From positions 1 to 40,014 of the forward strand of contig CAIQUG010000135.1 of the NCBI GenBank assembly GCA_903874895.1: 40,014 bases of DNA, given 5' to 3'. Numbering within the stretch: position 1 is the first letter of the stretch; each line of letters starts with the position of its first letter. This document shows positions 12,218 to 30,979 of the stretch, piece by piece. The stretch is from an uncultured Caulobacterales bacterium (GTDB taxonomy: Bacteria; Pseudomonadota; Alphaproteobacteria; Caulobacterales; Caulobacteraceae). The notes under the pieces were generated by a model. It was given only the letters and a program-made list of their open reading frames with translations, searched no databases and was not told where the DNA came from. Made by a program: the position numbers and the translations under genes.

Positions 12218-12235
12218 GCCGAACGGCTGAACCTT

Positions 12236-12263
12236 CGTCGACCGGCCCGGGTGCCGGTCGACG
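12236..12263 (+). terminator. Strong hairpin after degP
   Basis: Perfect 11-bp inverted repeat (CGTCGACCGGC / GCCGGTCGACG) with a 6-base loop, starting 18 bases after the degP stop. It is very stable but has no T-tract, so it is a terminator of uncertain type or an attenuating/processing element between degP and the regulator gene. Confidence 0.5.
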
Positions 12264-12289
12264 GGGTGATGCCTCGGCGGATGGAGGGG

Positions 12290-12306
12290 CCCGGCCTCCG
12301 GCCGGG
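12290..12306 (+). promoter_or_regulatory. Hairpin overlapping the ribosome binding site of the second response regulator
   Basis: Inverted repeat CCCGGCC-TCC-GGCCGGG whose right arm runs into the GGGAGGGGG Shine-Dalgarno (12304-12312) of the regulator starting at 12319. If it folds, it would partly occlude the ribosome binding site. Confidence 0.35.
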
Positions 12307-12318
12307 AGGGGGACGGAC

Positions 12319-12990
12319 ATGCGCATCCTGATCATGGAAGACGACGTCAGCGCCGCCGAGGCGATGATGAAGGGCCTGGCCGACGCGGGTCACGAGACCG
12401 TCCACGCCCCCGATGGCCGCGAAGGCCTGGCCCTGGCCGCCAAGGGCGGCTTCGACGTCATGGTGGTGGACCGGATGATGCCCCATGTGGACGGCCTGAC
12501 CGCGGTCTCCACCCTGCGGCGGGAGGGGGACGGCACGCCGGTCCTGTTCCTGTCCGCCCTGGGCGAGATCGACGACCGGGTCACCGGGCTGAAGGCCGGG
12601 GGCGACGACTATCTGGTCAAGCCCTACGCCTTCGCCGAGCTGATTGCCCGGGTGGAGGCCCTGTGCCGCCGCAAGGACACGGGCGGGCAGACCACCACCT
12701 TGGAGGTCGGGGATCTGGAAATGGACCTGATCGGCCGGACCGTGCATCGGGCCGGGACCGAGATCGACCTGCAGCCCCGGGAATTCCAGCTGCTGGAGTT
12801 CCTCATGCGTCATGCGGGCCAGTCGGTGACCCGCACCATGCTGCTGGAAAAGGTGTGGGAGTATCATTTCGATCCGCAGACCAATGTGATCGATGTGCAC
12901 ATCTCCCGCCTGCGCGGCAAGATCGACAAGGGTTTCGACCGGGCCATGCTGCAGACCGTGCGCGGCGCGGGCTATCGGCTGGAAGCCTGA
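12319..12990 (+). CDS. Response regulator, OmpR family
   Basis: A 223-residue two-domain regulator. The receiver domain has the acidic pocket EDD at 7-9, phosphoacceptor D51 in VVDRMMP, FLSAL and the conserved lysine in VKPYAF. The C-terminal winged helix shows LQPREFQLLEFLM, the recognition helix near NVIDVHISRLRGKI and the wing LQTVRGAGYRLEA. A strong purine-rich site precedes the ATG. It is followed 15 bases later by its kinase. The degP-regulator-kinase order matches the arrangement downstream of cycHJKL in rhizobia, so it may control envelope functions, but its targets are unknown. Confidence 0.92.
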   Translation: MRILIMEDDVSAAEAMMKGLADAGHETVHAPDGREGLALAAKGGFDVMVVDRMMPHVDGLTAVSTLRREGDGTPVLFLSALGEIDDRVTGLKAGGDDYLVKPYAFAELIARVEALCRRKDTGGQTTTLEVGDLEMDLIGRTVHRAGTEIDLQPREFQLLEFLMRHAGQSVTRTMLLEKVWEYHFDPQTNVIDVHISRLRGKIDKGFDRAMLQTVRGAGYRLEA

Positions 12991-13005
12991 CGGGCCGGGC
13001 GCGAC

Positions 13006-14421
13006 ATGCCCCTGCCTGCCCTGTTCCGCACCACCGCCTTCCGGCTGACCCTGCTGTCCCTGGCCCTGTTCGCGGCGGCGGCGGCGGCCTTCCTGTTCTA
13101 CATCTATGTCGCGACCGCCGGCGAGGTGACCCGCCGCGCCGACGAGGAGGTGAGCCGGGAGATCAGCTCGCTGGAGACGGTCTATGCCCGGGCCGGGGCC
13201 ACGGGCGTGAACCAGGCCCTGATCGAGCGCACGGCCATGGACCGGCCGTTCCTCTATCTGCTGATGGACAGGACCGCCAAGCCGATCAGCGGCAACATCG
13301 CCGCCACGCCGGTGGACCCGCCCGCCAGCGAGGCCCATGCCTCCTTCCGTGTCAGGTCCACCGATGCCGACGGGGCCGTGGTCCGCCGCCAGGCCTGGGG
13401 CCGGCAGATCCGCCTGCCGCAGGGGGAGCTGCTGTTCGTGGGTGCCGACATCGGTGAGGGGCAGGGCTATGTGCTGCGCATCGTTCGCGCCACCTGGGGA
13501 GCCGGTGTGCTGGTGCTGGTGCTGGGCCTTGCGGCCGGACTGCTTGTCAGTCGCAACGTGTCCCGCAGCCTGGCCGGGCTCAAGACCGTGGTGGCGGCGG
13601 TGGAGGCGGGGGACCTGTCCGCCCGGGCGCCGGTGCGCGGGGTGGGGGACGAATATGACGACCTGGCCGCCGGCATGAATGCCATGCTGGACCGGGTGGA
13701 CCGGCTGATGGGGGGCCTGCGCCATGCGGGGGACGCCATCGCCCATGACCTGCGGTCTCCCCTGACCCGGCTCCGCGCCCGGCTCGAGGCGGCGCTGATC
13801 GAGGTGGAGAACGGCCGCGCCGATGCCACGGAGAGCCTGGAACAGGCCCTGGCCGACACCGACGGGGTGCTGTCGACCTTCAACGCCGTGCTGGCCATTT
13901 CCCGGCTGCAGGCGGCGGGGCAGGTGCCCAATCCCAAGCCCTTCGACCCGTCAGCGCTGTGCGAGGGGCTGGCGGAGCTCTATGCCCCCCTGTGCGAGGA
14001 CAAGGGGCTCGAATTCTCGGCGGAATATTCCAAGGGGCTGGTGGTGCGCGGCGACCCGGACTTCGCCGGGCAGGCCATGGCCAATCTGCTGGATAATGCC
14101 ATCAAGTACACACCCGCCGGCGGAGCCGTGATGCTGCGGGTGCGCAAGCGCGCCTCGGGGGAGATCGAGTGCTCGGTCACCGACACCGGCCCCGGCGTGC
14201 CGGAGGAGGACCGGGCCCGGATCGTGCAGCGCTTCGTGCGGCTCGAGAACAGCCGTTCCCAGCCCGGATCGGGGCTGGGCCTGTCCCTGGTGCAGGCGGT
14301 GGCCGAGGCCCATGGGGGTCGGCTGGATCTGGACGAGGGTCCTGGCCGGGTGCGGGGCCGGGCGATTCCGGGCCAGGGACCCGGCCTGCGCACGGCGCTG
14401 GTGTTTCCGTCGCAGGACTGA
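13006..14421 (+). CDS. Sensor histidine kinase, partner of the preceding regulator
   Basis: A 471-residue inner membrane kinase. Membrane helices span about 13-34 and 164-182, flanking a periplasmic domain of about 125 residues. A HAMP domain (about 183-235) leads to the H box HAGDAIAHDLRSPLTRL with phosphoacceptor H247. The ATPase domain has NLLDNAIKY (N360/N364), DTGPG at 393-397 and GSGLGLSLV at 421-429. All catalytic boxes are intact, so it should be active. It is 15 bases downstream of the OmpR-type regulator and almost certainly co-transcribed with it. The signal is unknown. In rhizobia glnE follows the equivalent kinase; here a convergent TetR gene follows instead. Confidence 0.92.
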   Translation: MPLPALFRTTAFRLTLLSLALFAAAAAAFLFYIYVATAGEVTRRADEEVSREISSLETVYARAGATGVNQALIERTAMDRPFLYLLMDRTAKPISGNIAATPVDPPASEAHASFRVRSTDADGAVVRRQAWGRQIRLPQGELLFVGADIGEGQGYVLRIVRATWGAGVLVLVLGLAAGLLVSRNVSRSLAGLKTVVAAVEAGDLSARAPVRGVGDEYDDLAAGMNAMLDRVDRLMGGLRHAGDAIAHDLRSPLTRLRARLEAALIEVENGRADATESLEQALADTDGVLSTFNAVLAISRLQAAGQVPNPKPFDPSALCEGLAELYAPLCEDKGLEFSAEYSKGLVVRGDPDFAGQAMANLLDNAIKYTPAGGAVMLRVRKRASGEIECSVTDTGPGVPEEDRARIVQRFVRLENSRSQPGSGLGLSLVQAVAEAHGGRLDLDEGPGRVRGRAIPGQGPGLRTALVFPSQD

Positions 14422-14474: not shown

Positions 14475-15119
14475 TTACACCCGGTAGGCCGCCACAAAGG
14501 TGTGGACGGCGCAGTCGATGTCGGCGGCGATCTCGGCCTCCGAGGGTTCCGGGGCCAGGCCCCACAGCAGGTGCTGGTGGGTGCGCGCCCGGCACAGGCT
14601 GAGGAAATGGGCCGCGGCCAGGGCCGGGTCGTCGGTTCGCAGCAGGCCATGGTCCATCGCCCCGCCAAGCAAACGGGACAGGTGCTCGATCTTGTCCTGC
14701 GGGCCTGCCTTGTAGAAGGTCTCGCCGAGCTCCGGAAAGCGGCCGGCCTCGCCGATCACCAGGCGGTAGAGGGCCACGGTCTGGGGCCGGCACATGAAGG
14801 TCAGCAGGGTCTGGCCGATGCGGGTCAGCCGGGCCGTCAGCTCGTCCAGGTGGGTGCAGGGGGGCTCGGGCACGGCCGGAAAGACCTGCCCGCCGCCCAG
14901 ATCCTCGGTCCTGTTGCTGAGCACGGCCCCGAACAGCTCTGCCTTGGAGCGGAAATAGGCATAGAGGGTCCCCTTCGATCCCCCCACCGCCGCGGCAATG
15001 GTGGACATGGACGCGGCCCCATAGCCCTCGGACAGGAAGATGTCCCGGGCCACCTCGATGATCGCTTCGCGGCGACGATCGCACCGGGGGCCTCTGGATT
15101 TTTGCGCGATCTGTCCCAT
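14475..15119 (-). CDS. TetR/AcrR family transcriptional repressor
   Basis: A 214-residue TetR-family regulator. The N-terminal helix-turn-helix is clear: RREAIIEVARDIFLSEGYG, then MSTIAAAVGGSKGTLYAYF and KAELFGAVL. The remaining all-helical region is the ligand-binding and dimerisation domain, with FMCRPQTVALYRLVIGEAGRFPELG typical of AcrR/AefR-like members. It is divergent from an outer membrane factor-EmrA-EmrB efflux operon, so it probably represses that operon and itself, released by a pump substrate. I chose the ATG at 15119 because it gives the usual spacing before the DNA-binding domain; AGGA lies unusually close to it, so translation initiation is unclear. Two palindromes in the intergenic region are its likely operators. 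Confidence 0.88.
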   Translation of the reverse strand: MGQIAQKSRGPRCDRRREAIIEVARDIFLSEGYGAASMSTIAAAVGGSKGTLYAYFRSKAELFGAVLSNRTEDLGGGQVFPAVPEPPCTHLDELTARLTRIGQTLLTFMCRPQTVALYRLVIGEAGRFPELGETFYKAGPQDKIEHLSRLLGGAMDHGLLRTDDPALAAAHFLSLCRARTHQHLLWGLAPEPSEAEIAADIDCAVHTFVAAYRV

Positions 15120-15129
15120 TTCCTGACCG

Positions 15130-15141
15130 AACCGTACGGTT
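15130..15141. promoter_or_regulatory. Putative TetR operator 1
   Basis: Perfect 12-bp palindrome AACCGTACGGTT ending 11 bases from the tetR start codon. It shares the half-site ACCGTAC with the second palindrome at 15190-15206, which supports a common binding protein, most simply the adjacent TetR. Confidence 0.6.
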
Positions 15142-15145
15142 TTTC

Positions 15146-15173
15146 TTGACCTCGGCGTTCCGCAGGTTATGTA
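15146..15173 (+). promoter_or_regulatory. Putative promoter of the nodT-emrA-emrB operon
   Basis: TTGACC (15146-15151), 16 bases, then TATGTA (15168-15173), a good sigma-70-type match on the plus strand. It lies between the two palindromes, so a repressor bound at either could block it. Confidence 0.5.
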
Positions 15174-15189
15174 AACCGTCACGAAACTG

Positions 15190-15206: not shown

Positions 15207-15243
15207 TGCTCCTCCGTCTGTCGACTACAAAAGGCCCTGATTG

Positions 15244-16728
15244 ATGCTGCAGCGACCGATCTTCCCGCGCGCCGCCGGCTCTGCCATCGCGGCCGCCGGT
15301 CTCCTCGCGGCGACCCTCGTGCTGGCGGCCGGCTGTGCGCCGAACCTCGGCCCGCGACCGCCTCTGGCCGCCGCAGGAAGCCTGGCCTCGCGGGAGAGCC
15401 TGACCGCGCCCACGGCGGACTGGCCGACCCAGGCCTGGTGGAAGGCCTATGGCGACCCGCAGCTGGACGCCCTGATCGAGGAGGGGCTGAAGTCGGCCCC
15501 GACCGTGCGTCAGGCCGCCGCCCGCCTGCGCTCGGCCGAGGCCGCCGCCGGCCAGTCCCGGTCGACCCTGTTCCCGGGTGTGGCCGTGAGCGCCGGTGAG
15601 CAGGAATATCTGCAGAGCAAGAACACGGGCTTCCCCGAGTTCATCAAGAAGAACTTTCCGGGCTCCCCCCACGCCTTCGGCCGCCTGTCGGTGGACCTGG
15701 CCTGGGACCTGGACCTGTTCGGCCGCAACCGGGCCAACCTCGCCGCCGCCGTGTCCGAGGCGCAGGCCGCCCAGGCGGATCGGGCGCAGGCGGAGCTGAC
15801 CCTGTCCTCGGCCATCGCGGCCCAGTATGCCGATCTGCGCCGCCTCGCCGCGGACCGCGCCGCGGCCCAGGCGGCCGTGGAGATCCGCCGCAAGACCCTG
15901 GCCCTGGTGGGTCAGCGGCTGGAGAACGGCCTCGAGACCAAGGGCGAATTCAAGCAGCAGGCGGCCAGCGTCCCCGCCGCCCGGTCCGAGGTGGATGCCC
16001 TGGACCGGCAGATCGCGCTGGGCCGCAACCAGCTGGCGGCTCTTCTCGGTGCCGGTCCCGATCGGGGTCTGTCGGTGAAGCTGGACGGGGACGCCCCCGC
16101 CCTGAAGCCCTTCGGCCTGCCCCCGCAGGTGGGGCTGGATCTGGTGGGTCGGCGGCCGGACATCGCCGCGGCCCGCCTTCGGGCCCAGGCCGCCGCCAAG
16201 CGCATCCGGGCGGCGGACGCGGACTTCTATCCCAATCTCAACCTCGCCGGGTCCTTCGGCTACCAGTCCCTCGGCCTCGATCTGCTGACCTCCAAGAACA
16301 GCCGGTTCTCCGGCGTGGGTCCCGCCCTCAGCCTGCCGGTCTTTTCCGGCGGTCGGGGACGGGCGGCCTACCGCAACGCCCGCAGCCAGTATGACCTGGC
16401 CGCCGCCACCTATGACCAGACCCTGACCCAGGCCCTGCACGAGGTGGCCGACTCGGTGGTGAACATCCGCATGCTGGACCGCCAGCTGGCCGATGCCCGG
16501 GAGGCGCTGGAGAATTCCGAGGCGGCCTACCGCATCGCGCTCGCCCGGTACGAGGGCGGCCTGTCTCCCTATATCGCCGTGCTCACCTCCGAGAATGCCC
16601 TGATCAGCCAGCGCCGCGCCGTGGCGGATCTGGAGGGCATCGCCCTGACCAATGACATCGCCCTCGTCCGGGCCCTGGGGGGCGGTTACCAGCCCGCCGC
16701 CGGGCGCGGCCCCACCGCGGCCCGATGA
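15244..16728 (+). CDS. Outer membrane efflux lipoprotein, NodT/OprM family
   Basis: A 494-residue outer membrane factor. The signal peptide ends in the lipobox LAAGC with lipidation at C31. Two repeats of the outer membrane efflux protein fold follow; typical segments are WWKAYGDPQLDALIEE, WDLDLFGRNRANLAAA, LVGRRPDIAAARLRAQAA and ALARYEGGLSPYIAVLTSE. It forms the trimeric channel-tunnel that completes a tripartite pump with the adaptor and MFS transporter encoded next. AAGG lies about 10 bases upstream of the ATG. It is the first gene after the putative TetR-controlled promoter. Its frame is the same as that of the next gene, separated only by the TGA and a short repeat-bearing spacer. Confidence 0.92.
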   Translation: MLQRPIFPRAAGSAIAAAGLLAATLVLAAGCAPNLGPRPPLAAAGSLASRESLTAPTADWPTQAWWKAYGDPQLDALIEEGLKSAPTVRQAAARLRSAEAAAGQSRSTLFPGVAVSAGEQEYLQSKNTGFPEFIKKNFPGSPHAFGRLSVDLAWDLDLFGRNRANLAAAVSEAQAAQADRAQAELTLSSAIAAQYADLRRLAADRAAAQAAVEIRRKTLALVGQRLENGLETKGEFKQQAASVPAARSEVDALDRQIALGRNQLAALLGAGPDRGLSVKLDGDAPALKPFGLPPQVGLDLVGRRPDIAAARLRAQAAAKRIRAADADFYPNLNLAGSFGYQSLGLDLLTSKNSRFSGVGPALSLPVFSGGRGRAAYRNARSQYDLAAATYDQTLTQALHEVADSVVNIRMLDRQLADAREALENSEAAYRIALARYEGGLSPYIAVLTSENALISQRRAVADLEGIALTNDIALVRALGGGYQPAAGRGPTAAR

Positions 16729-16733
16729 GTTCC

Positions 16734-16778
16734 CCCAGTCCCGATACTCCCCGCCCCGATCCTCCCCGTCCCGATACC
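16734..16778 (+). repeat. 15-bp imperfect tandem repeat between nodT and emrA
   Basis: Three copies of a CCCCG-TCCCGAT-type unit with a strict 15-base period (GAT at 16743, 16758 and 16773). It fills most of the spacer between the outer membrane factor and the adaptor gene. The C-rich run would be unstructured in mRNA. Confidence 0.7.
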
Positions 16779-16818
16779 CTTCCGCCGCATGACCCTGCCG
16801 CCGCTGAAAGTCCGACCC

Positions 16819-17982
16819 ATGGCCAGTGACACTGTCTCTTCCGCTCCGACCGCCACCGCGGCCAAGCCCGCCTCCAACCTTCGCCAGCGCCTGTTCACCG
16901 GCCTCGGCGCCGTCGTGGTAATCGGTGCCCTGGCCTATGGAGGCTGGTGGGGGCTCGTGGGCTCGCACCACGTCTCCACCGACGACGCCTATGTGGGGGC
17001 CGACATCGCCCTGATCACGCCCCAGACGGCCGGAGCCGTGCAGAAGGTGCTGGTCGCCGACACCCAGGCGGTGAAGGCCGGTGACGTGGTGGCGGTGATC
17101 GATCCCACGGACGCGGCCTATCCCCTGGCCCAGGCCACGGCGGACTACGCCCGGGTCGTGCGCCGGGTGCGGGGCGAGATCGCCACCACCGAGGCTGCCG
17201 GGGCCACGGTCGCTGCCCGGGACGCGGACCTGGCCCGGGCCAAGGCCCAGACCGTGGCCGCCGAAAGCGATCTCGCCCGGTCGAAGCTGGAATATGACCG
17301 CCGTGACAAGCTGGCCGCCACCGGTGCCGTGTCTGGGGAGGAGCTGACCAATGCCCGCACCACCCTGCGCAATGCCGAGGCGAACCTGGCAGCGGTCAAG
17401 GCCGCCCAGGCCCTGGCCGAAGCCAATCTGAAGGTCGCCCACGCCCAGAGCGAGGCCCAGTCGGCCCTGACCTCCGGGGCTGGTGTCGACGACAATCCCG
17501 ACGTGAAGTACGCCAAGGCCAATCTCGACGCGGCGCAGATGAACTATGACCGCTGCGTCCTGAGGGCGCCGGTGGACGGGATCGTGGCGAAGCGCAATGT
17601 GCAGGTGGGCCAGCGGGTGGCCATCGGCACGCCGCTGATGAGCATCGTCCCCATCAACCAGGCCTTCGTCGACGCCAACTTCAAGGAAGTGCAGCTGAAG
17701 AAGGTCCGGGTCGGCCAGACGGTGGAGGTCGAGGCCGATCTCTATGGCGGCGGCGTGAAGTACCACGGGACCGTGGTCGGCGTCGGCGGCGGCACCGGTG
17801 CGGCCTTCGCCGTGATCCCGGCCCAGAACGCCACCGGCAACTGGATCAAGGTGGTGCAGCGGCTGCCCGTGCGCATCCGCCTCGATGCCAAGGACCTGGC
17901 GGAGCACCCCCTTCGGGTCGGCCTGTCCGTGAAGGTCGATATCGACACCGCCAGCGGCGCCGCCCGCGGCGCAGGCGCGTGA
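16819..17982 (+). CDS. emrA: EmrA/HlyD-type membrane fusion protein
   Basis: A 387-residue periplasmic adaptor. A cytoplasmic N-terminus is followed by one membrane helix (about 27-47), then the EmrA signature STDDAYVGADIALITPQ. The lipoyl half-motifs flank a long coiled-coil hairpin (about 100-225, rich in Ala/Glu/Arg). NYDRCVLRAPVDGIVAKRNV and QAFVDANFKEVQLKKVRVGQ are typical of EmrA. It links the MFS pump encoded next to the outer membrane factor encoded before. The ATG at 16819 was chosen because GAAAG lies upstream; an in-frame ATG at 16789 is the alternative. Its stop overlaps the GTG start of the transporter by 4 bases. Confidence 0.9.
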   Translation: MASDTVSSAPTATAAKPASNLRQRLFTGLGAVVVIGALAYGGWWGLVGSHHVSTDDAYVGADIALITPQTAGAVQKVLVADTQAVKAGDVVAVIDPTDAAYPLAQATADYARVVRRVRGEIATTEAAGATVAARDADLARAKAQTVAAESDLARSKLEYDRRDKLAATGAVSGEELTNARTTLRNAEANLAAVKAAQALAEANLKVAHAQSEAQSALTSGAGVDDNPDVKYAKANLDAAQMNYDRCVLRAPVDGIVAKRNVQVGQRVAIGTPLMSIVPINQAFVDANFKEVQLKKVRVGQTVEVEADLYGGGVKYHGTVVGVGGGTGAAFAVIPAQNATGNWIKVVQRLPVRIRLDAKDLAEHPLRVGLSVKVDIDTASGAARGAGA

Positions 17983-19529
17983 GCCTCTCCATGGCGGCGG
18001 CCTTCTCCCGGGACGACAAGCAGCCCCTGACCGGCCCGATGCTGGCCCTGGGGGCCTTCGTGCTGGCCATGGCCAACTTCATGGCCATCCTGGACACGAC
18101 CATCGCCAATGTGAGCGTGCCCAACATCGCCGGCGGTCTCGCCATCTCCCCCAGCGAGGGGACCTGGGTGATCACGTCCTACTCGGTCGCCGAAGCCATC
18201 ACCGTGCCCCTGTCCGGCTGGCTGGCGTCGCGGTTCGGCGCGGTGCGGGTGTTCTGCGGCGCGGTGATCGCCTTCGGAGTCTGCTCGGCCCTGTGCGGCA
18301 TCGCCCCGTCCCTCGGCGTGCTGGTCATGTTCCGCGTCCTTCAGGGGTTCAGCGGCGGACCGATCATGCCCCTGTCCCAGACCCTGATGATGCGCATCTT
18401 CCCCCCGGAACGGCGCGGGGTCGCCATGGGGCTGTGGTCCATGACCGCCGTGGTCGGGCCCATTGCCGGGCCGCTGCTGGGGGGCCTCATCTGCGACAAT
18501 GCCAGCTGGCCGTGGATCTTCTACATCAACGTGCCCGTGGCCATCGGCATCTTCTATTTCGCCTCCCGCCTGCTGCCCCGCTACGAGCTGCCGCTGGTCA
18601 AGGCCCCGGTGGATTTCGTGGGCCTGGGCCTTCTTGTGGTCTGGGTCGGCTCCCTGCAGATCATGCTGGACAAGGGGGAGGAGGCCGACTGGTTCAACTC
18701 GTCCTTCATCGTGCTGCTGGCCGTGACCGCGGCCGTCGGCTTTGCCGCCTTCCTGATCTGGGAGCTGACGCACAAGCACCCCATCGTGGCCCTGCGCCTG
18801 TTCGCGGTCCGGGCGTTCTCCACCTGCAGTGCGGTGATGGCCCTGACCTATGGCGCCTTCTTCGGGGCGGTGGTGCTGATCCCCCTCTGGCTCCAGACCA
18901 GCATGGGCTACAATGCCCTGTGGTCCGGTCGGGTAATGGCGGTGCAGGGGGTGCTGGCCGTGCTCCTCTCCCCGGTGGTGGGGGCCAATATCGGCAAGAC
19001 CGATCCCCGGCGCTTCGTGTTCGGCGGGGTCCTGCTGATCGCCGTGGTCATGTTCATCCGGGCCGGCCTGAACACCCAGGCGAACTTCTGGTCCATCACC
19101 ATCCCGCAGATCATGCTCGGGGCGGGGATGCCCTTCTTCTTCATCGGCCTGAACACCATCGCGCTGGGCTCGATCTCGCAGGAGGACACGGCCTCGGGGG
19201 CCGGGATTCTCAACTTCCTGCGGACCACGGCGGGGGCCTTCGCCGTGTCGCTGACGACCACCAGCTGGTCCAATGCCTCGACCACGGCCCGGGTCTCCCT
19301 CGCGGGACGGCTGAATACGGCGGCGACGCTGGACCAGATGCAACAGGGGGGGATGGGGGCCGCCCAGGCCCTTTCGGCAGTGGACCAGCTGGCCCAGCAG
19401 CAGGCGGTGATGCTGGCCACGGATGGGGTGTTCACGGCCATGAGCGTGATCCTGGTGATCGCGGCCTGCTCGATCTGGCTTGCGCCCCGACCCGCCGGAC
19501 CCGTAGTTCTGGGCGAAGGCGGACACTGA
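17979..19529 (+). CDS. emrB: EmrB/QacA-type MFS drug efflux transporter (DHA2 family)
   Basis: A 516-residue inner membrane transporter with the 14-helix DHA2 layout. The first helix carries the family motif LDTTIANVSVPNIAGG, followed by TWVITSYSVAEAITVPLSGW and WLASRFGAVRVF (motif A region). GLWSMTAVVGPIAGPLLGG is the antiporter motif C in helix 5. It is the proton-driven pump of a three-part EmrAB-type system with the preceding adaptor and outer membrane factor. The GTG at 17979 overlaps the adaptor stop (GTGA); an ATG at 17991 is possible. Expression is probably controlled by the divergent TetR protein. Substrates cannot be told from sequence. Confidence 0.93.
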   Translation: MSLSMAAAFSRDDKQPLTGPMLALGAFVLAMANFMAILDTTIANVSVPNIAGGLAISPSEGTWVITSYSVAEAITVPLSGWLASRFGAVRVFCGAVIAFGVCSALCGIAPSLGVLVMFRVLQGFSGGPIMPLSQTLMMRIFPPERRGVAMGLWSMTAVVGPIAGPLLGGLICDNASWPWIFYINVPVAIGIFYFASRLLPRYELPLVKAPVDFVGLGLLVVWVGSLQIMLDKGEEADWFNSSFIVLLAVTAAVGFAAFLIWELTHKHPIVALRLFAVRAFSTCSAVMALTYGAFFGAVVLIPLWLQTSMGYNALWSGRVMAVQGVLAVLLSPVVGANIGKTDPRRFVFGGVLLIAVVMFIRAGLNTQANFWSITIPQIMLGAGMPFFFIGLNTIALGSISQEDTASGAGILNFLRTTAGAFAVSLTTTSWSNASTTARVSLAGRLNTAATLDQMQQGGMGAAQALSAVDQLAQQQAVMLATDGVFTAMSVILVIAACSIWLAPRPAGPVVLGEGGH

Positions 19530-21007: not shown

Positions 21008-22846
21008 GTGACTGATTCAGGCTCTTCGACCCCCGGTTCCACGCCACCCCAGGGGCCCTATGACGCACCGCCCTGGCTCGGACGCCGCACCCGCAGTGGA
21101 CGGATGGGCTGGATCGTCACCGGGCTCGCCGTCCTCGTGCTGGGCGGGGTGGTCTGGTTCGCCATCGCCAACAAGGCCAAGCCGGTGGACGAGGCCGGCG
21201 GTGGCTTCGGCGGGCCTCCGGGGGCCGGGGGACCGCCCGGCGCCGGCGGACGCGGCGGCGGGGCCGGCGGCAAGGGCGGTCGGGGCGGCGGGGCCGTGGT
21301 GAACACGGCCGTGGCCGAGGCCGGGGCCATGCCGGTCACGGTCCAGGCCCTGGGCACGGTGACGCCCGCGGCCACGGTGACGGTGAAGACCCAGCTGAGC
21401 GGCCAGCTCATGTCCGTGGGCTTCACCGAGGGACAGGTCGTGAAGAAGGGCCAGTTCCTGGCCCAGGTGGATCCCCGTCCCTATCAGCAGCAGCTGGCCC
21501 AGGCGGAGGCCACGGCGGCCAAGGACCGGGCCCAGCTGACCAATGCCCAGATGGACCTGAAGCGCTACCAGACCCTGCTGGCGCAGGACTCGGTGTCGCG
21601 CCAGCAGGTGGACACCCAGCAGGCCCTGGTGGGGCAGCTGCAAGCCCAGGTGAAGGCCGACGAGGCCGCCGTGGGCACCCAGAAGCTGAACCTGGCCTAT
21701 ACCCGGATCGTCTCCCCCATCTCCGGCAAGGTGGGCCTGCGTCAGGTGGATGCGGGCAACTACGTCACCGCCGGCGACGCCAACGGTATCGTGACCGTGG
21801 CCCAGGTCAGCCCCATCGACGTGGCCTTCACCCTGCCCGAGGACGTGGTCCCCAAGGTGAACCAGCAGCTGGCGCGCCACGCCCATCTGGCGGTGGAGGT
21901 CTATGACCGTGCCCAGAGTCAGGTGCTGGCCCACGGGTCGCTGGCCACCCTCGACAACCTGATCGACACCACCACCGGCACCGTGCGGGCCAAGGCCCGC
22001 TTCGCCAATGCCGATGATGCCCTGTTCCCGAACCAGTTCGTCAATGTCCGCCTGACCGTCGAGGTGCTGAAGGGGGCGGTGATCGTGCCGACCTCTGCCG
22101 TGCTGCGGGGCCAGAACGGCATGTTCGTCTATGCCGTGGACAGCGCCCGGACGGTGCATGTCCGCCCCGTCACGCCGGGCGCGGCCCAGGGCGAGCGGAC
22201 GGCGATCCTGTCCGGCCTGTCAGCCGGCGAGACCGTGGTCACCGACGGGACCGACCGGCTGCGCGAAGGCATGGCCGTGTCCACGCCGCCTGCCTGCCCG
22301 CCGGGGACCGGTGGAGCGGGGGGGCGCGCCATGCGCAAGGGACCGGGCTCCGGCGGGGCCTCGGCCTTCGGCGGACGATCCGGCGGTGGTGCAGGCGGCT
22401 CGGCGGCATGCCGGCCCGCTTCGGCCCCCGCGGGGGCTTCGGGCGGGGCCGCGCCGATGGCCGCTTCCGGTGCCGCGCCGAGTGCCGCGGTCGCAGGTCG
22501 GGGCAGGGCCGCGGACGTCGCAGCGACGCCGGCTCCGGCTGCGGGCGGTGGCGAGGGTGGCGGCGGCGGACGGCTGGCGGGCATGCTGGCCGAGCTGAAC
22601 CTCGATCCGGCCCAGCAGCAGAAGGCCGATATCCTCTTCGCCGAAGCCCGGGAGCAGGCCATGGCCCAACTGGGTGACAATGCCGACCCCGACGCCCGGC
22701 GCGCGGCCATGAAGAAGGCCTACGGGGCCGCCTTCGGCAAGCTGTCCACGATCCTGCGGCCGGAACAGAAGGCCAAGCTGATCGAGATCCGCGCGCGGAT
22801 GGCGATGCAGGGTGGTGGCCAGGGCGGTGGCGGTCCGCAGCGATGA
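21008..22846 (+). CDS. RND efflux periplasmic adaptor (MdtA/MuxA-like) with C-terminal LTxxQ domain
   Basis: A 612-residue adaptor, much longer than the usual 400 or so. One membrane helix (about 33-53) is followed by a Gly/Pro-rich spacer (64-96) and the adaptor core (about 97-425): barrel-sandwich halves ([19 protein letters not shown] and [20 protein letters not shown]) around a coiled-coil hairpin. After the core come a 95-residue Gly/Ala/Ser/Pro linker with two cysteines (C430, C468) and a helical domain (523-600) with two LTxxQ-like motifs, [11 protein letters not shown] and LRPEQKAKL, as in Spy/CpxP-type periplasmic proteins. The start is a GTG with GGAG upstream inside the palindrome AAGGAGCTCCTT. 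The stop overlaps the first pump gene (ATGA). The core call is firm; the fused domain is a motif-level call. Confidence 0.88.
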
Positions 22847-25800
22847 GCCCTCCGTCCAAGCCTCCCGGTTCCGCCCCTCAGGGTCCGGCACCCCGGGGGG
22901 AGGGTGGTGGCCCGCTGGGCGGGTTCAGCCCGTCGACCCTGTTCATCGAGCGGCCGATCGCCACGTCGCTGCTCATGGTGGCCATCTTCCTGTCCGGGCT
23001 GATCGGCTTCCAGTTCCTGCCCCTGTCGGCCCTGCCGGAGGTCGACTACCCCACCATCCAGGTGCAGACCTTCTATCCCGGGGCCTCGCCGGAGGTGATG
23101 ACCTCCACCGTCACCGCACCCCTGGAGCGGCAGCTGGGCCAGATGCCCAGCCTGCAAAGGATGAGCTCGGTCAGCTCCAATGGCGCGTCGGTCATCACCC
23201 TGCAGTTCGGCCTCGACCTGACCCTGGACGTGGCCGAGCAGCAGGTGCAGGCGGCCATCAATGCCGCAGGCAATCTGCTGCCCTCCGACCTGCCGACACC
23301 GCCCACCTATGCCAAGGTCAATCCGGCGGATGCGCCGGTGATGACCCTGGCCCTGTCCTCCGACGTGCTCGCGCCGACGGAGGTGGAGGATCTGGCGGAC
23401 AACCGGCTGGCCTCCCGCATCAGCCAGATGCCGGGCGTGGGTCTGGTGACCGTCAGCGGCGGCCAGCGCCCCGCGGTGCGCATCCAGGCCAATCCCCAGG
23501 CGCTGGCGGGTTACGGGCTCAGCCTCGACACCCTGCGCTCGTCCATCGCCGCGGCCAATGTCAACGGGGCCAAGGGCACGGTGAACGGGCCGACCCGGGC
23601 CTACGCCATCAATGCCAATGACCAGCTGTCGAGCCCGGCGGACTACGAGCGGCTGGTGGTGGCCTATCGCAACGGGGCACCGATCCGTCTGGGGGCGGTG
23701 GCCAAGGTGGTGGCGGGGGCCGAGAACAGCCAGCTGGGGGCCCTGGCGGGCGCGCCGCGGAACGGCAGGCCCTACACCACGCCAGCGGTGATCCTGAACA
23801 TCCAGCGACAGCCCGGCGCCAACGTCATCGCCGTGGTGGACCGGATCAAGGACCTGCTGCCCCACACCTACTGCCAGACCAAGGACTGCAAGGCCAAGCC
23901 CAGCCTGATCGAGGACGGCCTGCCCGCGGGCCTGGTCATCACCCCCATGACCGACCGGACCGTGACCATCCGCGCCTCCGTGCACGACGTGGAGTTCGAG
24001 CTGGCCATGGCCGTCGCCCTGGTGGTGGCGGTGATCTTCGTCTTCCTGCGCAACATCGCCGCGACCTTCATCGCGGGCGTGGCCGTGCCCCTGTCGCTGG
24101 TGGGCACCTTCGGTCTGATGTACCTGCTGCATTTCAGCCTGAACAATCTCAGCCTCATGGCCCTGACCGTGGCGTCCGGCTTCGTGGTCGACGACGCCAT
24201 CGTCATGATCGAGAACATCAGCCGCTACGTGGAGGAGGGGGAGGAGAGCCGCCCCGCCGCCCTCAAAGGGGCCGGCGAGATCGGCTTCACCATCATCTCG
24301 CTCACCGTCTCCCTGCTGGCGGTGCTGATCCCCTTGCTGTTCATGGCCGATGTGGTGGGCCGCCTGTTCCGGGAGTTCGCGGTGACGCTGGCGGTGACCA
24401 TCGTCATTTCCGCCATCGTCTCCCTGACCCTGGTCCCGTCCCTGTGCGGCCTGTGGCTGAAGCAGCCAAAGACCCCCCGCCCGGGCGGGTTCGAGGACCG
24501 GGCCCAGAAGGCGCTGGACTGGGTCATCGAACGCTATGACCTGGGCCTGGGCTGGGTCCTGTCCCATCAGCGCACCACCCTGATCGTCGCCCTGGCGACC
24601 TTCGCCCTGACGGCCGTTCTCTATGTGGTGATCCCCAAGGGCCTGTTCCCCGTCCAGGACGTGGGCGAGATCCAGGGCGTGGTGGAAGCGGACCAGAGTG
24701 TCTCCTACGGCAAGATGGCGCAGATCCAGTCGGCCGTGGCGGAGGCCCTGCTGAAGGATCCGGCGGTGGAGAACGTCTCCGCCTTCACCGGCGTCGATGC
24801 CCAGAACAACAGCGTCAACAACGGCCGCGTGCTGATCCAGCTGAAGCCGCTGAACCAACGCTCCGGCTCCGCCAGCGAGATCATCCGTCGCCTGAATGAC
24901 GAGATTCGCGTCCCCGGCGCGACGGTCTACATGCAGCCCGTCCAGGACCTGGCCATCGATTCCCAGGTGTCCAAGACCCAGTACCAGTTCGTGCTGGAAG
25001 GGGCCGATCCGGCCCTGCTGCAGACCTGGAGTGCGGCGGTCATCGACCGGCTGAAGCAGAGCCCCAAGGTCGCCGACGTCACCTCCGACGTGCAGAGCCA
25101 GGGGCTGGCCATGTCCATCGAGGTGGATCGGGACACGGCCGGGCGCCTGGGGGTCTCCATGGCCTCCATCGACAACGCCCTGTACAACGCCTACGGCCAG
25201 CGCATCGTCTCCACCATCTTCACCCAGTCCAACCAGTACCGGGTGATCCTCGAAGTGGCACCGGAGTTCCGGCTGGGGCCCGAGGCCCTGTCCAGCCTCT
25301 ATCTGCCCACGGGGTCCGGCGGTCAGGCCCCCCTGTCGTCCTTCGCCCGGCTGGTGGAGCAACCCGCCCCCCTGGTCGTGACCCATGTGGGCCAGTTCCC
25401 CGCCGTGACCATCAGCTTCAACCTCGGCAAGGGGGAGAGCCTGGGCGGCGCGGTGAACGCCATCAAGCAGATGGAGCGGGAGGTGAAGGTCGGGGCCCAG
25501 ACCGGCGTGCCCCTGTCGATCAACACCACCTTCCTCGGCGCCGCGGACGCCTTCGAGAAGTCCCTGAACAACGAGCTGTGGCTGATCCTGGCCGCGATCG
25601 TGACCATCTACATCGTGCTGGGCGTGCTCTATGAGAGCTTCATCCACCCGATCACGATCCTCTCCACCCTGCCGTCGGCGGCGGTGGGGGCCCTGATCGC
25701 CCTGATGATCGCCGGCGAGGACCTGGGCGTGGTGGGGGTGATCGGCCTGATCCTGCTGTTCGGCATCGTCAAGAAGAACGCGATCATGATGATCGACTTC

Positions 25801-26118
25801 GCCCTCGATGCAGAGCGGAACGAGGGCCTGTCCCCCGTGGACGCGATCCGGCAGGCGGCGCTGCTGCGCTTCCGGCCGATCCTGATGACCACGCTGGCGG
25901 CCCTGTTCGGCGCCGCGCCGCTGATGATCGGCGGCGGCTACGGGGCAGAGCTTCGCCAGCCCCTGGGCGTGGCCATTGTGGGCGGTCTGATCGCCTCGCA
26001 GCTGCTGACCCTGTTCACCACCCCGGTGATCTATCTGGCCTTCGACCGGCTGGCCCGTCGGCTGCCCGCGGACAGGCTGACCGAGGACGGAGCCCCTGAA
26101 GGATCGGGTGCGGCGTGA
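22843..26118 (+). CDS. RND multidrug transporter, MdtB/MuxB-like
   Basis: A 1091-residue HAE1-type RND pump with 12 predicted membrane helices and two large periplasmic loops. The proton-relay aspartates in helix 4 are intact (D450 and D451 in [14 protein letters not shown]). Conserved segments include [32 protein letters not shown] and the late [21 protein letters not shown] Pro/Gly-rich N-terminal extension of about 30 residues precedes the first helix. In the first periplasmic loop, after VDRIKDLLP, there is a short insert with the pair C344 and C349 (CQTKDC), which I do not expect in MdtB. It is followed by a second, different RND gene, as in mdtABC and muxABC, where the two pumps form a mixed trimer. 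Both junctions overlap by 4 bases. Confidence 0.93.
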
Positions 26119-29100
26119 ACATCACGGAGCTGTTCATCCGGCGTCCCGTCGCCACCACGCTCCTGACCATCGGCATCGCCCTGACCGGCGTCGCGGCCTA
26201 TTTCCAGCTGCCCGTCTCGTCCCTGCCGGCGGTGGACCTGCCCACCATCATGGTGCAGGCGCGCCTGCCCGGCGCCAGCCCGGCGGTGATGTCCACCAGC
26301 GTGGCCACACCGCTGGAACGGCATCTGGGCCAGATCGCCGACGTGAGCGAGATGACCTCCACCTCCTCGGTGGGGGAGACCCAGGTGATCCTGCAGTTCG
26401 GTCTCAGCCGGGACATCAACGGCGCGGCCCGGGACGTGCAGGCGGCCATCAATGCCGCCCGGGCGGACCTGCCGGCGACGCTGCGGTCCAACCCCACCTA
26501 CCGCAAGTTCAATCCCGCCGACGCGCCGATCCTGATCCTGTCGCTGACCTCGCCAATCCTGTCCAAGGGCCAGATGTACGATGCGGCAGCCACCATCCTG
26601 CAGCAGAAGCTGAGCCAGGTCGAAGGGGTCGGCGACGTCTCCCTGGGCGGCGGGGCCAATCCCGCCGTGCGGGTGGAGCTGAACCCCCAGGCCCTGTTCA
26701 AGTACGGCCTGAGCCCGGAGGACGTGCGCGCTGCCATCTCCTCGGCCAATGCCAACCAGCCCAAGGGCTTCCTCGCCAATAACAGCCGCCGCCTGCAGAT
26801 CTACACCAACGACCAGGCCCGCACGGCGGACGATTACCGTCATCTGGTGATCGCCGTCCGGGACGGTCAGGTGATCCGCCTGTCCGACGTGTCCGACGTG
26901 GTCGACAGCGTCGAGGACGTGCGGCAGATGGGCCTGGTGGACGGCAAGCCCGCCATCGTCGTGCGCATCACCCGCCAGCCGGGCGCCAACGTGATCGCCA
27001 CGGTGGACCGGATCAAGGCTGCGCTGCCGCGGCTTCGGGCCCAGCTGCCGCCCCAGGTGGACCTGGAAATCGGTGTCGACCGCACCACCGCCACCCGCGC
27101 CTCGCTGAACGATGTGGAACGCTCCCTCGCCATCTCCATCTTCCTGGTGGTGCTGGTGGTCCTGGTGTTCCTGCGCAACGGCCGGGCGGTGATCATCCCG
27201 GCGGTGGCGGTGGTGGTCTCCCTGCTGGGGGCCCTGTCGGTCATGTACCTGCTGCACTACAGCCTCGACAGCCTGAGCCTGATGGCCCTGACGGTGGCCA
27301 CCGGCTTCGTGGTCGACGACGCCATCGTGGTGCTGGAGAACATCACCCGCCACGTGGAGGAGGGGATGCCCCGCTTCCAGGCCGCCATCCTGGGGGCCCG
27401 GGAAGTGTCGTTCACGGTGATCTCGATCTCCGTCTCGCTGGTGGCGGTGTTCGCCCCCATCGTGCTGATGGGGGGCATTGTCGGGAAGTTCTTCGTCGAG
27501 TTCGGCGTGACCCTGTCGGCCTCCATCGTCATCTCGCTGGTGGTCAGCCTGACCTTCACCCCGATGATGGCCGCCCGGCTGGGCAGCCTGCACGAAACCG
27601 CACATCCCGGCAGCCGTCGGAGCGGTGTGTCGCAGGTCCTGTGGCAGATCTCCGAGGCGATGGAACGGGCCTTTGACGGCGTGACCGCCACCTATGGCCG
27701 GTCCCTGGCCTGGGCGCTGGACCACCGGCGCCTGATCATGCTGTTGCTGCTCGGCACGATCGGTCTCAACGTCTATCTCTTCATCCAGGTGCCCAAGGGC
27801 TTCTTCCCGCAGCAGGATTCCGGCCAGCTGGTCGGCGGCATGCAGGTGGACCAGGCGAGCTCCTTCCAGCTGACGGCGGAGAAGTTCCGGCGGCTGCAGC
27901 AGATCGTGTCGGCCGACCCGGCGGTGGAACATGCGGTGGGCTTCACCGGGGCCGGCGGCGGCTTCATGTTCGCCAGCCTGAAGCCGAAGGCACAGCGCGG
28001 GGGCTTGAGCTCCGACGAGGTGGCCCAGCGGATCCGGCCCAAGCTGAAGCGGGTGGCCGGCGCGGCCCTGTTCCTGCAGGTGCAGCAGGAGTTCCGCCTC
28101 GGCGGACGCCAGTCCGCGGCCCAGTACCAGTACACCCTGCAGAGCGACGACATCGACGCCCTGCGGACCTGGTCGGAAAAGCTCACCAACCAGCTGAAGC
28201 TGTCCCCCCTGCTCACCGACGTGAATTCCGACCAGCAGGAGCACGGGCTGGAGACCTATGTGACCCTGGACCGGGACGCGGCCTCCCGCCTCGGGGTCAC
28301 GGCCCAGCAGATGGACAACATCCTCTACGACCTGTTCGGCCAGCGGCAGGTGTCCACCATCTACAACCCCCTGAACCAGTACCATGTGGTGATGGAGGCC
28401 GAGCCGCACTTCACCCAGTTCTCCGACAGCCTCCACGACACATGGCTGACGCCGGTGGGGGCCTCCAGCGCCACGGCCAGCTCGCCGGCCGTCAGCGCCC
28501 GCCTGGCCAGCCCGGCCCGGCTGGCGGTGATGGCCAATCCGGCCAACCAGACCCCGCCCAATCCGTCCACCACCCTGACCAGCCGCGCGCCCGCGCCGCA
28601 GCCCTTCATGGTCCTGTCCCGCCCGGCCCCGTCCGGACCGGGGGGCGCGGCCTCGGCCACGGTCTCCACGGCGGCGACAAGCGCGAATACCTCCGGGGTC
28701 ACCGGGTCGGCCACGGCCCTCAACGGCGCGGGTGCCGCCCGCACCACCACCGGGGCCACACCGGCACAGACGGGCAACGCCGTCTCCACCGGTGCGGCGC
28801 GGATGATTCCGCTGGCAACCATCGCCACCTGGCAGCTGAACAACACCCCGATCTCTGTCAGCCACCAGGGCCAGACCGTCGCCGCCACCGTCTCGTTCAA
28901 CCTGAAGCCGGGCCGGTCCCTGTCCGACGCCCAGTCCGAGATGGCCGCCGCCATCGCCGCCATCGGCATGCCCAACGCCGTGCATGGCAGCTTCCAGGGC
29001 ACGGCGGGCGCCTTCCAGGCCACCGGCAGCTCGCCGGTGCTGCTGATCGGCGGGGCCCTCCTGGCGGTCTACATGGTGCTGGGGATCCTTTACGAGAGCT

Positions 29101-29594
29101 ATGTCCACCCGATCACGGTGCTGTCGACCCTGCCGTCGGCGGGAGTCGGGGCCTTCCTCGCCCTGCTGGTCTTCCATGTGGAATTCTCGATCATTGCCCT
29201 GATCGGGGTCATCCTGCTGATTGGCATCGTCAAGAAGAACGCCATCCTGATCATCGACTTCGCCCTGCAGGCGGAGCGGGCCGGCGCGACGCCGATGGAG
29301 GCGATCTACCGCGCCTCCCTTCTGCGCTTCCGGCCGATCCTGATGACCACGGTGGCCGCCATCCTGGGGGCCGTGCCCCTCGCCCTGGCCTTCGGCGAGG
29401 GGGGCGAGCTGCGCCAGCCGCTGGGCGTCACCATCATCGGCGGTCTGGTGGCCAGCCAGATCCTGACCCTTTTGACCACCCCCGTCGTCTATATCTACAT
29501 GGACCGTCTGCGGCATCTGCAGCTGTTCCGCCGCTTCCGCCGTCGCCGCCCGCGTCCGGCGCCGCTTCACCCCGTGACCGGGCAAGGCTCATGA
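26115..29594 (+). CDS. RND multidrug transporter, MdtC/MuxC-like, with a low-complexity periplasmic insert
   Basis: A 1159-residue RND pump, longer than the roughly 1030 usual for MdtC. The N-terminus [16 protein letters not shown] and [18 protein letters not shown] are typical, and helix 4 keeps D401 and D402 ([14 protein letters not shown]). The second periplasmic loop follows the family up to about residue 782 (DTWLTPVG). It is then interrupted by about 110 residues made almost only of Ala, Ser, Thr, Pro, Gly and Asn. The family sequence resumes at [11 protein letters not shown] (from about 896). The insert is in frame and both ends are canonical, so this is not a frameshift. It starts with a GTG overlapping the preceding stop and would act with the preceding pump, adaptor and the next-encoded channel. 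Confidence 0.93.
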
Positions 29595-30979
29595 TGACCC
29601 GCAAGCTTCTTTCCCCGCTCATCGCCGCCCTGATGCTGTCCGCCTGCGCCGTGGGCCCCAACTACCGCACGCCGACGGCGGGGACCGAGACCGCCTTCAA
29701 GGAGGCGGATGGATGGACCCCGGCCACGCCGATGGATGCCATCGACCGCGGGGCCTGGTGGTCGGCCTATCACGACCCCGCGCTGGACGATCTGGAGCAG
29801 CGCCTCGCCGCCTCCAACCAGACCCTCGCCGCCCAGCTTCAGGCCTACAAGCAGGCCCGCGACGTGCTGGCCGAGACCGAGGCGGCCTTCTTCCCCGTCC
29901 TGTCCGCCACGGGCTCCGGCCAGAAGAGCGGCGGCAAGGGGTTGAGCCCCTCCGGCACCGCCGCGACGCGCTATGCCGCCGCCGCCGATGCCTCGTGGAC
30001 CGTGGACCTGTGGGGCCGTATCCGCCGCCAGATCGAGCAGGGCCGCGCCAACGCCCAGGCCAGCGCCGCGGACCTCGCGAATGTCCGCCTGTCCCTCCAG
30101 GCCACGCTGGCCATCGACTATTTCCAGCTCCGGGCCACGGATGCGCAGAAGGACCTGCTGGCCGCCACCGTGGCCAATGACACCCGCGCGCTGGCCCTGA
30201 CCGAGAACCAGTACGCGGCCGGTGTCGCGGCCCGCGGCGACGTGATCACCGCCCGCACCCAGCTGGAGACCGCCCAGGCCAGCCTGATCGACGTGACCTC
30301 CACCCGCGCGCAGCTCGAACACGCCATCGCCGTGCTGGTGGGCCAGACGCCGCAGAGCTTCAGCCTGGCCCCGGCCCCCCTGCCGCAGACTGCGCCGGTG
30401 GCCCCGCTCAACCTTGCCGGAACCCTGCTGCAGCGCCGTCCGGACGTGGCGGCGGCAGAGCGGGCGGCGGCCGCGGCCAGTGCCGGCATCGGCATTGCCA
30501 GGTCGGCCTATTTCCCGGCGGTCACCCTGTCGGCCTCCGATTCCACCGCCGCCGCCAGGACGCAGTCGCTGTTCAAGGCCGCCACTTCCAGCTGGGCCTA
30601 CGGGGCCAGCGCGGCGGTCACGGTGTTCGACTTCGGAGCCCGCGAGGCCCAGGTGCGCGGGGCCAAGGCCGCCTACAACCAGCGGGTGGCGGAGTATCGC
30701 CAGACGGTGCTCACCGCCTTCCAGCAGGTGGAGGACCAGATCGCCACCCTGCGCACCCTCGAGGCCGAGGCCGGCTACCGGGACCAGGCTGTAGCCGATG
30801 CCCGCGCGGCGGAGGCCATCGCGCTGAACCAGTACCGGTCGGGCACGGTGAATTATTCGGTGGTGATCCAGGCGCAGAACACTGCCCTCGCCGCGGCCCA
30901 GAATGCCCTCTCCACCCAGCGCGCCCGTCTGGTGGCCAGCGTGTCGCTGATCGAGGCCCTCGGCGGCGGGTGGCGGTAG
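29591..30979 (+). CDS. Outer membrane efflux lipoprotein, NodT/OpmB-like
   Basis: A 462-residue outer membrane factor. The signal peptide ends in the lipobox LSAC with lipidation at C19. Then come VGPNYRTP, WWSAYHDPALDDLEQRL, WTVDLWGRIRRQIEQG, LLQRRPDVAAAERAAAAASA and a late LNQYRSGTVNYSVVIQAQNTA, all typical of both halves of the trimeric channel fold. It is the fourth gene of the operon; its ATG overlaps the stop of the second pump (ATGA). The layout adaptor-pump-pump-channel matches muxABC-opmB of Pseudomonas. A second outer membrane factor for the MFS pump is encoded at 15244, so this window has a dedicated channel for each pump. Confidence 0.93.
   Translation: MMTRKLLSPLIAALMLSACAVGPNYRTPTAGTETAFKEADGWTPATPMDAIDRGAWWSAYHDPALDDLEQRLAASNQTLAAQLQAYKQARDVLAETEAAFFPVLSATGSGQKSGGKGLSPSGTAATRYAAAADASWTVDLWGRIRRQIEQGRANAQASAADLANVRLSLQATLAIDYFQLRATDAQKDLLAATVANDTRALALTENQYAAGVAARGDVITARTQLETAQASLIDVTSTRAQLEHAIAVLVGQTPQSFSLAPAPLPQTAPVAPLNLAGTLLQRRPDVAAAERAAAAASAGIGIARSAYFPAVTLSASDSTAAARTQSLFKAATSSWAYGASAAVTVFDFGAREAQVRGAKAAYNQRVAEYRQTVLTAFQQVEDQIATLRTLEAEAGYRDQAVADARAAEAIALNQYRSGTVNYSVVIQAQNTALAAAQNALSTQRARLVASVSLIEALGGGWR

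Follow-up and report, generated by a model that had tools for sequence, protein, structure and literature searches.

An MdtABC-type operon with an extended periplasmic adaptor

The window analysed here is a stretch of 40,014 nucleotides from an uncultured Caulobacterales bacterium (contig CAIQUG010000135.1). An open frame at positions 21008–22846 of the forward strand, stop codon included, starts with GTG and encodes a 612-residue periplasmic adaptor of the MdtA/MuxA type. The NCBIfam MdtA/MuxA model NF008589 matches residues 88–425 (E 6.8e-119) with 397.3 bits, which passes its curated cut-off of 391. NCBIfam matches to residues 88–425 and 98–425, together with the strands predicted by AF2, delimit an adaptor core at residues 98–425 (21299–22282, forward strand); the matches end at residue 425, near which a previous reading of this DNA, made from the sequence alone (hereafter the sequence-only reading), had placed the end of the core. 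AF2 positions the hairpin helices at residues 157–232 and predicts an N-terminal membrane helix at residues 31–55 (21098–21172, forward strand), which, judging from the model, would span the membrane and place the rest of the adaptor in the periplasm.

The adaptor stop codon overlaps the ATG of the first RND permease gene at 22843. This permease is of the MdtB/MuxB type (22843–26118) and is followed on the same strand by a second, MdtC-type RND permease (26115–29594) and by an outer-membrane factor of the NodT family (29591–30979; NCBIfam TIGR01845, E 2.1e-111). The best NCBIfam models for the two permease genes are PRK10503 (1477 bits, below its cut-off of 1584) and PRK10614 (1341 bits, below its cut-off of 1774), respectively. 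Adaptor, MdtB/MdtC-type permeases and NodT-family factor together make this an operon of the MdtABC type that brings its own exit duct. The second permease contains an Ala/Ser/Thr/Pro-rich insert of about 110 residues (28413–28787, permease residues about 767–891), located between positions that align to residues 770 and 784 of solved MdtB; it is another low-complexity element within the same pump as the adaptor linker described below.

A second export operon lies upstream (15241–19529) and consists of a NodT-type outer-membrane factor, an EmrA-type adaptor and an EmrB-type MFS pump, with a regulator that we take to be TetR-like on the opposite strand at 14475–15182. A Do-family protease, followed by a response regulator and a histidine kinase, occupies 10628–14421; the two-component pair scores best to heavy-metal CusRS/CzcRS-type models, under their cut-offs.

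The nearest named relatives are metagenome-assembled genomes (MAGs) of uncultured Caulobacterales. Two neighbouring MAGs (loci L063 and L062) contain the same continuous frame from the adaptor into its C-terminal domain, so an assembly chimera is unlikely.

A Spy-related domain at the end of a long tether

The core is followed by a disordered linker of 92 residues (426–517; 22283–22558, forward strand) that contains 28 Ala, 26 Gly, 11 Pro and 8 Ser and is predicted with a pLDDT of about 31 over residues 429–518 (AF2 on an 18-row alignment), and then by an LTXXQ/Spy-like four-helix domain at residues 519–604 (22562–22819, forward strand). The long Gly/Ala/Ser/Pro linker and succeeding helical domain described in the sequence-only reading are thus both present. 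That reading had assigned the domain to the Spy/LTXXQ family by motif, and profile comparison bears this out: residues 516–612 alone match Pfam LTXXQ (PF07813) with 29.0 bits (E 1.8e-6), above the curated cut-off of 24.3. The whole adaptor protein scores 12.3 bits, below that cut-off, so routine annotation would probably miss the domain; the low-complexity linker is probably what brings the score down. Each of the 13 tail domains in the alignment matches LTXXQ with an E of 1 or lower (best 1.6e-10). A profile of these 13 matches Spy chains among the solved structures at E 1.1e-6, and one built from 17 tail and insert domains together (the mixed profile; see below) matches Spy at E 2.4e-8. E. 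coli Spy is the only molecule below E 0.03 for both profiles; CpxP is matched at E 0.2–0.9. Profiles were needed for this comparison, because searching the solved structures with a single sequence gave nothing beyond chance matches (E 0.075 and above), most of them to beta-lactamases.

Two LTxxQ-like motifs had been reported in the domain. Both are where they were said to be, but the strict Thr of the family motif is replaced in each, by Asp in LDPAQ and by Arg in LRPEQ, with L and Q kept, and literal LTxxQ is absent from the window's domain. In the first motif, LNLDPAQ (residues 530–536; 22595–22615, forward strand), both Leu and the Gln show no variation across the 13 tail domains or the 17-row mixed set. 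The second, LRPEQKAKL (residues 583–591; 22754–22780, forward strand), keeps L, P, Q and K in every one of the 13 tail domains, and its L and Q throughout the mixed set.

AF2 modelling of the full chain on the 18-row alignment yielded a core of high confidence and helices at residues 519–529, 534–554, 561–582 and 585–604, with pLDDT values mostly of 84–94, and the domain modelled alone with three rows gave the same four helices at a mean pLDDT of 77. Structure prediction, which had been proposed as a check, hence returns a helical domain, the four-helix fold being a prediction from few alignment rows. The full-chain model joins the domain to the core solely through the low-confidence linker (pTM 0.43). 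Foldseek with the predicted domain gave no matches below E 0.001 (Spy 0.39, CpxP 0.52), with chains of STV, Spy, CpxP and CnrX filling 12 of the first 13 rows. VIA aligned Spy with a Z of about 5.5 over 72 residues at 4.1 Å and the VirG-like protein STV with a Z of 7.7. Unrelated bundles, among them a spidroin domain at Z 7.3, fall between the two, and these values lie in a range that, by the tool's own warning, is common for helical bundles. The net charge of the 13 tail domains is +2 to +5. Taken together, the profile matches and shared motifs indicate that the tail is a genuine Spy-family (LTXXQ) domain, carried on a long linker of an RND adaptor.

Conservation of the domain and drift of the linker

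The extension is present in close homologues, L063 and L062 included, so its absence from all of them, which the sequence-only reading had named as a refutation, did not occur. Amino acid identity to L063 and L062 is 95% and 85% in the domain, 95% and 86% in the core, and 71% and 59% in the linker, respectively. The corresponding dN/dS values are 0.08 and 0.30 (domain), 0.11 and 0.30 (core), and 0.14 and 0.46 (linker), with a saturated linker dS against L063 (1.5) and overlapping bootstrap intervals for the domain and linker ratios. The contrast in identity is for these reasons the stronger statement. By these comparisons the domain is conserved as strongly as the core while the linker drifts.

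The tether preceding the tail domain, or the first of two, measures 61–167 residues among tail-domain adaptors. The window's linker contains two cysteines, Cys430 (22295–22297) and Cys468 (22409–22411, both forward strand), and such a pair, 5–7 and 34–74 residues past the core, is found in nine of the ten loci of one subclade; L148, one of the nine, ends at a contig end before the position of the domain. The tenth locus, L151, has neither the tail domain nor the first linker Cys. Cys430 and Cys468 could form a periplasmic disulfide that loops the tether.

Related domains on MdtA-type tails and within MacA-type adaptors

Among 149 genomes of the family Caulobacteraceae, 36 match the tail domain at E 0.01 or better. 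In the 35 that were read (G044 was left out), the domain lies on an MdtA-type tail in 12 and inside a MacA-type adaptor in 23. A thirteenth MdtA-type tail, in G013, was found only by a frame search, and the tails of G041 and G045 are fragments at contig starts whose type was judged from RND sequence downstream in a shifted frame. In the MacA-type adaptors, the domain is inserted between the strand ending near MacA residue 315 and the remainder of the membrane-proximal (MP) domain; the MacA-type adaptors read from many Alphaproteobacteria have roughly 100–130 extra residues bearing the Spy-like domain at this place (L090–L095, L098, L100–L109, L111, L112, L114 and L175–L202, except L184). All 15 MacA inserts examined by profile match LTXXQ at E 1 or better (best 5.7e-7; one row contains sequence errors), and one tested alone scored 23.8 bits, just under the 24.3 cut-off. 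A profile of these 15 inserts alone, the row with errors included, matches Spy at E 0.0098. Several inserts contain a literal LTPEQ or LTPDQ, and the net charge of the 15 is +4 to +8. The presence of the domain inside MacA-type ABC adaptors, like the variable tail content described below, goes beyond the sequence-only reading.

A survey of the gene 3′ of the adaptor covered 32 loci, for 31 of which a downstream frame was obtained. It is plainly an RND permease at 8 of 11 MdtA-type tail-domain loci, a co-occurrence that the sequence-only reading had proposed to look for, and plainly a MacB-type ATPase or permease at 15 of 20 insert-bearing MacA-type loci; the remaining three and five, respectively, were read in a shifted frame.

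Wider searches recovered both arrangements. Of 385 genomes of the class Alphaproteobacteria, 27 match at 1e-5, comprising two MdtA tails, 20 MacA-type inserts (L109 and L114 assigned by eye, the other 18 by profile, including one fragment at a contig end) and five short free proteins. The mixed profile matched 25 of 299 genomes of the phylum: two MdtA tails, five frames of 534–631 residues and 18 of 152–286 residues. L210, among the five longer ones, comes from outside the class and is followed by a MacB-type ATPase. A PF07813 query of 299 genomes at E 1e-5 matched a free LTXXQ protein of the window's genome and missed the fused one, so that it gives no count of fusions. This free protein is His/Met-rich and lies on contig C134 (L001, 1189–1845, forward strand) beside frames that look to us like trmD and rplS. 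Six genomes of one genus of the class (G529, G647, G689, G728, G744 and G808; genus code g295) have large frames of 434–714 residues with two LTXXQ domains each.

Gain, loss and exchange of the tail

Adaptor-core matches at 1e-60 occur in 58 of the 149 family genomes. The 30 best-scoring MdtA-type loci divide into 11 with the domain, 17 without it, and two that lack it and are cut by a contig end; for one of these two, G045, the domain was found at the start of another contig. Among MacA-type orthologues with at least 54% identity, 27 of 28 have the insert (partial or weak matches for L197, L198 and L202), L184 being the sole one without it. From these counts of domain-free orthologues, 17 of 30 and 1 of 28, the domain is dispensable. 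Outside the family, 23 of 24 retrieved adaptors were checked, one of the 23 being cut by a contig end, and none has a tail domain. None of the 149 genomes combines the tail domain (13 genomes) with the usually insert-bearing MacA orthologue (28 genomes), a mutual absence with a probability of 0.059 by chance alone when relatedness is ignored.

On a core tree of 38 loci, which left out duplicates of one genome and most Acidobacteria, the tail domain requires at least three state changes. A single clade of tail-domain adaptors was rejected (p-AU 0.00025); an early gain with losses and two gains would both fit this tree. A tree of the domains themselves, from which the free LTXXQ protein of the window's genome, a very long branch in another tree, was left out, does not reject a single origin of the 13 tail domains (p-AU 0.25). 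In it, tail and insert domains from Caulobacteraceae fall into a single group (97/83), inside which 12 of the 13 tail domains come together (96/90); a tree with the inserts kept apart is not rejected either (p-AU 0.054, 89 columns). The grouping of the MdtA-tail copies with Caulobacteraceae MacA inserts favours, short of proof, a derivation of the tail domains from the inserts and suggests a move between pumps.

Tail content also varies. The adaptor of L170 (655–2787, reverse strand) bears two tandem Spy-like domains. In another genus, Cys-rich repeats occupy the tail position, three in L171 (1198–3300, forward strand), where Pfam Cys_rich_FGFR scores 21.6 bits, just under its cut-off of 22, and one in L167 (1093–2802, reverse strand), judged by eye from its Cys pattern.

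We tentatively propose, as a picture somewhat likelier to need revision than to stand, that the Spy-like domain can move between efflux adaptors as a module. It would have entered the MP domain of MacA-type ABC adaptors in Alphaproteobacteria and have been copied to the tail of MdtA-type RND adaptors in Caulobacteraceae. About six tethered chaperones would ring the base of either pump, and the MdtA tail would serve as a landing site at which periplasmic domains can be exchanged (a single or double Spy-like domain, Cys-rich repeats or none).

Discussion

Proposed role and alternatives

The explanation that we favour, at a little short of an even chance, is that the extension is a tethered Spy-like binding and holding domain at the pump base. 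In this MdtABC-type tripartite pump, the Spy-related four-helix domain hangs on the disordered tether of about 92 residues that leaves the MP domain. Known pumps have six adaptors each (the MacA chain of entries 5nik and 5nil accounts for 12 chains in the two entries), and by extension roughly six copies of the domain would surround each base, near the periplasmic cargo entry. There, close to the pump, the domain might capture polypeptides that are unfolded or amphipathic, or tannin-like aromatic toxins that bind proteins, and such capture could protect the pump or help to hand cargo to it. Its occurrence on two transporter types suggests an action on the neighbourhood that they share, the periplasm and the MP domain, and not on one permease.

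Several studies provide a setting for this role. Spy binds unfolded clients on a surface that is partly hydrophobic and carries positive charge, and tannin, butanol and ethanol induce it (PMC8144458). The genes spy, mdtA and acrD make up the core of the BaeSR regulon in E. coli (PMC3160322), and a soil study reports that Kosakonia expressed RND-type transporters together with Spy in reactors given condensed tannin (PMC8084988). Because E. coli regulates spy and mdtA together, the fusion unites relatives of two co-regulated products. The positive net charge of the domains is in line with Spy's client-binding face, a weak clue. The dimeric cradle of Spy may not form here, the spacing of the two motifs being about 53 residues, shorter than in Spy.

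A structural function is conceivable if unlikely: neighbouring domains might pair, or lie against the adaptor ring or the transporter, thereby bracing the assembled pump while binding no client. Spy does form dimers (PMC8144458), the MP-domain neighbourhood is common to both pump types, and the L170 tail has two copies. A tether of 61–167 residues would nevertheless make a poor brace, domain-free orthologues still have an RND gene downstream, and AF2 connects the domain to the core only by the low-confidence linker. Slightly less probable is an envelope-stress sensor resembling CpxP, a member of the same family as Spy, in which the tethered domain would bind a sensor kinase and report unfolded protein or the state of the pump. 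CpxP appears among the weak profile and Foldseek matches, and the two-component pair with its Do-family protease lies 6.6 kb upstream (10628–14421); in the window, however, none of the genes adjoining those of the pump encodes a kinase, and the upstream pair best fits models of the heavy-metal type, below their cut-offs.

The sequence-only reading had also considered a metal sensor of the CnrX/ZraP type, and here the evidence goes against it. CnrX and ZraP have a His-containing metal site, whereas the window's domain has neither His nor Cys; both residues are absent from 7 of 13 tail domains and from all 15 MacA inserts, although His occurs in 6 of the 13 tails. Metal_resist (PF13801) is matched by one of 13 tails (E 0.38) and one of 15 inserts (E 0.0075), and the window's domain does not match it at E up to 10. 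CnrX chains are present among the weak structural rows, and SilB bears a C-terminal CusF metallochaperone domain (PMC4446572), but multidrug models of the MdtB/MdtC type describe the permeases far better than heavy-metal models do, leaving a metal-binding sensor or metallochaperone very improbable. The patchy distribution of the domain, with its at least three state changes, the free variation of low-complexity tails and the tolerance of loss would all suit a near-neutral passenger that landed on a tolerant tail and was kept for no strong reason. Conservation of the domain at the level of the core, invariant motif residues and retention in several genera argue otherwise, and we regard this account as about as improbable as the stress sensor.

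If the tethered binding and holding mechanism is correct, some drug pumps come with arms of their own for protecting proteins or catching cargo, and efflux and envelope protein quality control are linked within one molecule. The fused form would offer a direct test of why mdtA and spy, as separate genes, share an E. coli regulon. The mechanism would further imply that there is one site at which adaptors tolerate the exchange of domains, and that such domains can escape a whole-protein Pfam score, as here, where the domain alone passes the cut-off that the full protein falls under.

Comparison with known systems

The portions of adaptor reviews covered, PMC8277102 among them, make no mention of Spy or LTXXQ, and no description of a Spy-like/adaptor fusion was found in titles or abstract beginnings among the matches listed, a search with subscription journals mostly outside its scope. 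An absence of the fusion from print is thus only indicated.

E. coli MacA (5nik, 9qgy) has the same core as the insert-bearing MacA-type adaptors, and its solved chain of 371 residues has no Spy-like insert. E. coli MdtABC likewise combines an adaptor with two RND permeases, but there spy is a separate gene, and the 392 positions of the MdtA/MuxA model do not extend over such a tail. Spy itself, a longer protein than the window's tail domain, shares with the latter its sequence family, four helices, two LTxxQ-like motifs and a positive net charge. Spy is free and dimeric (PMC8144458), whereas the window's domain is short and tethered, with motifs of the form LD..Q and LR..Q. Heavy-metal pumps are known to include adaptors with additional terminal domains, and SilB of Cupriavidus metallidurans with its CusF domain is the case that has been tested (PMC4446572). 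The all-helical tail domain and multidrug-type core do not fit a SilB-like CusF tail in the present adaptor. SilB and the present protein are alike in that each adaptor ends in a domain known elsewhere as a free-standing periplasmic chaperone; they differ in that SilB has a CusF metal-binding beta-barrel on a heavy-metal pump, whereas the window's adaptor has an all-helical relative of Spy on a pump of the MdtABC type.
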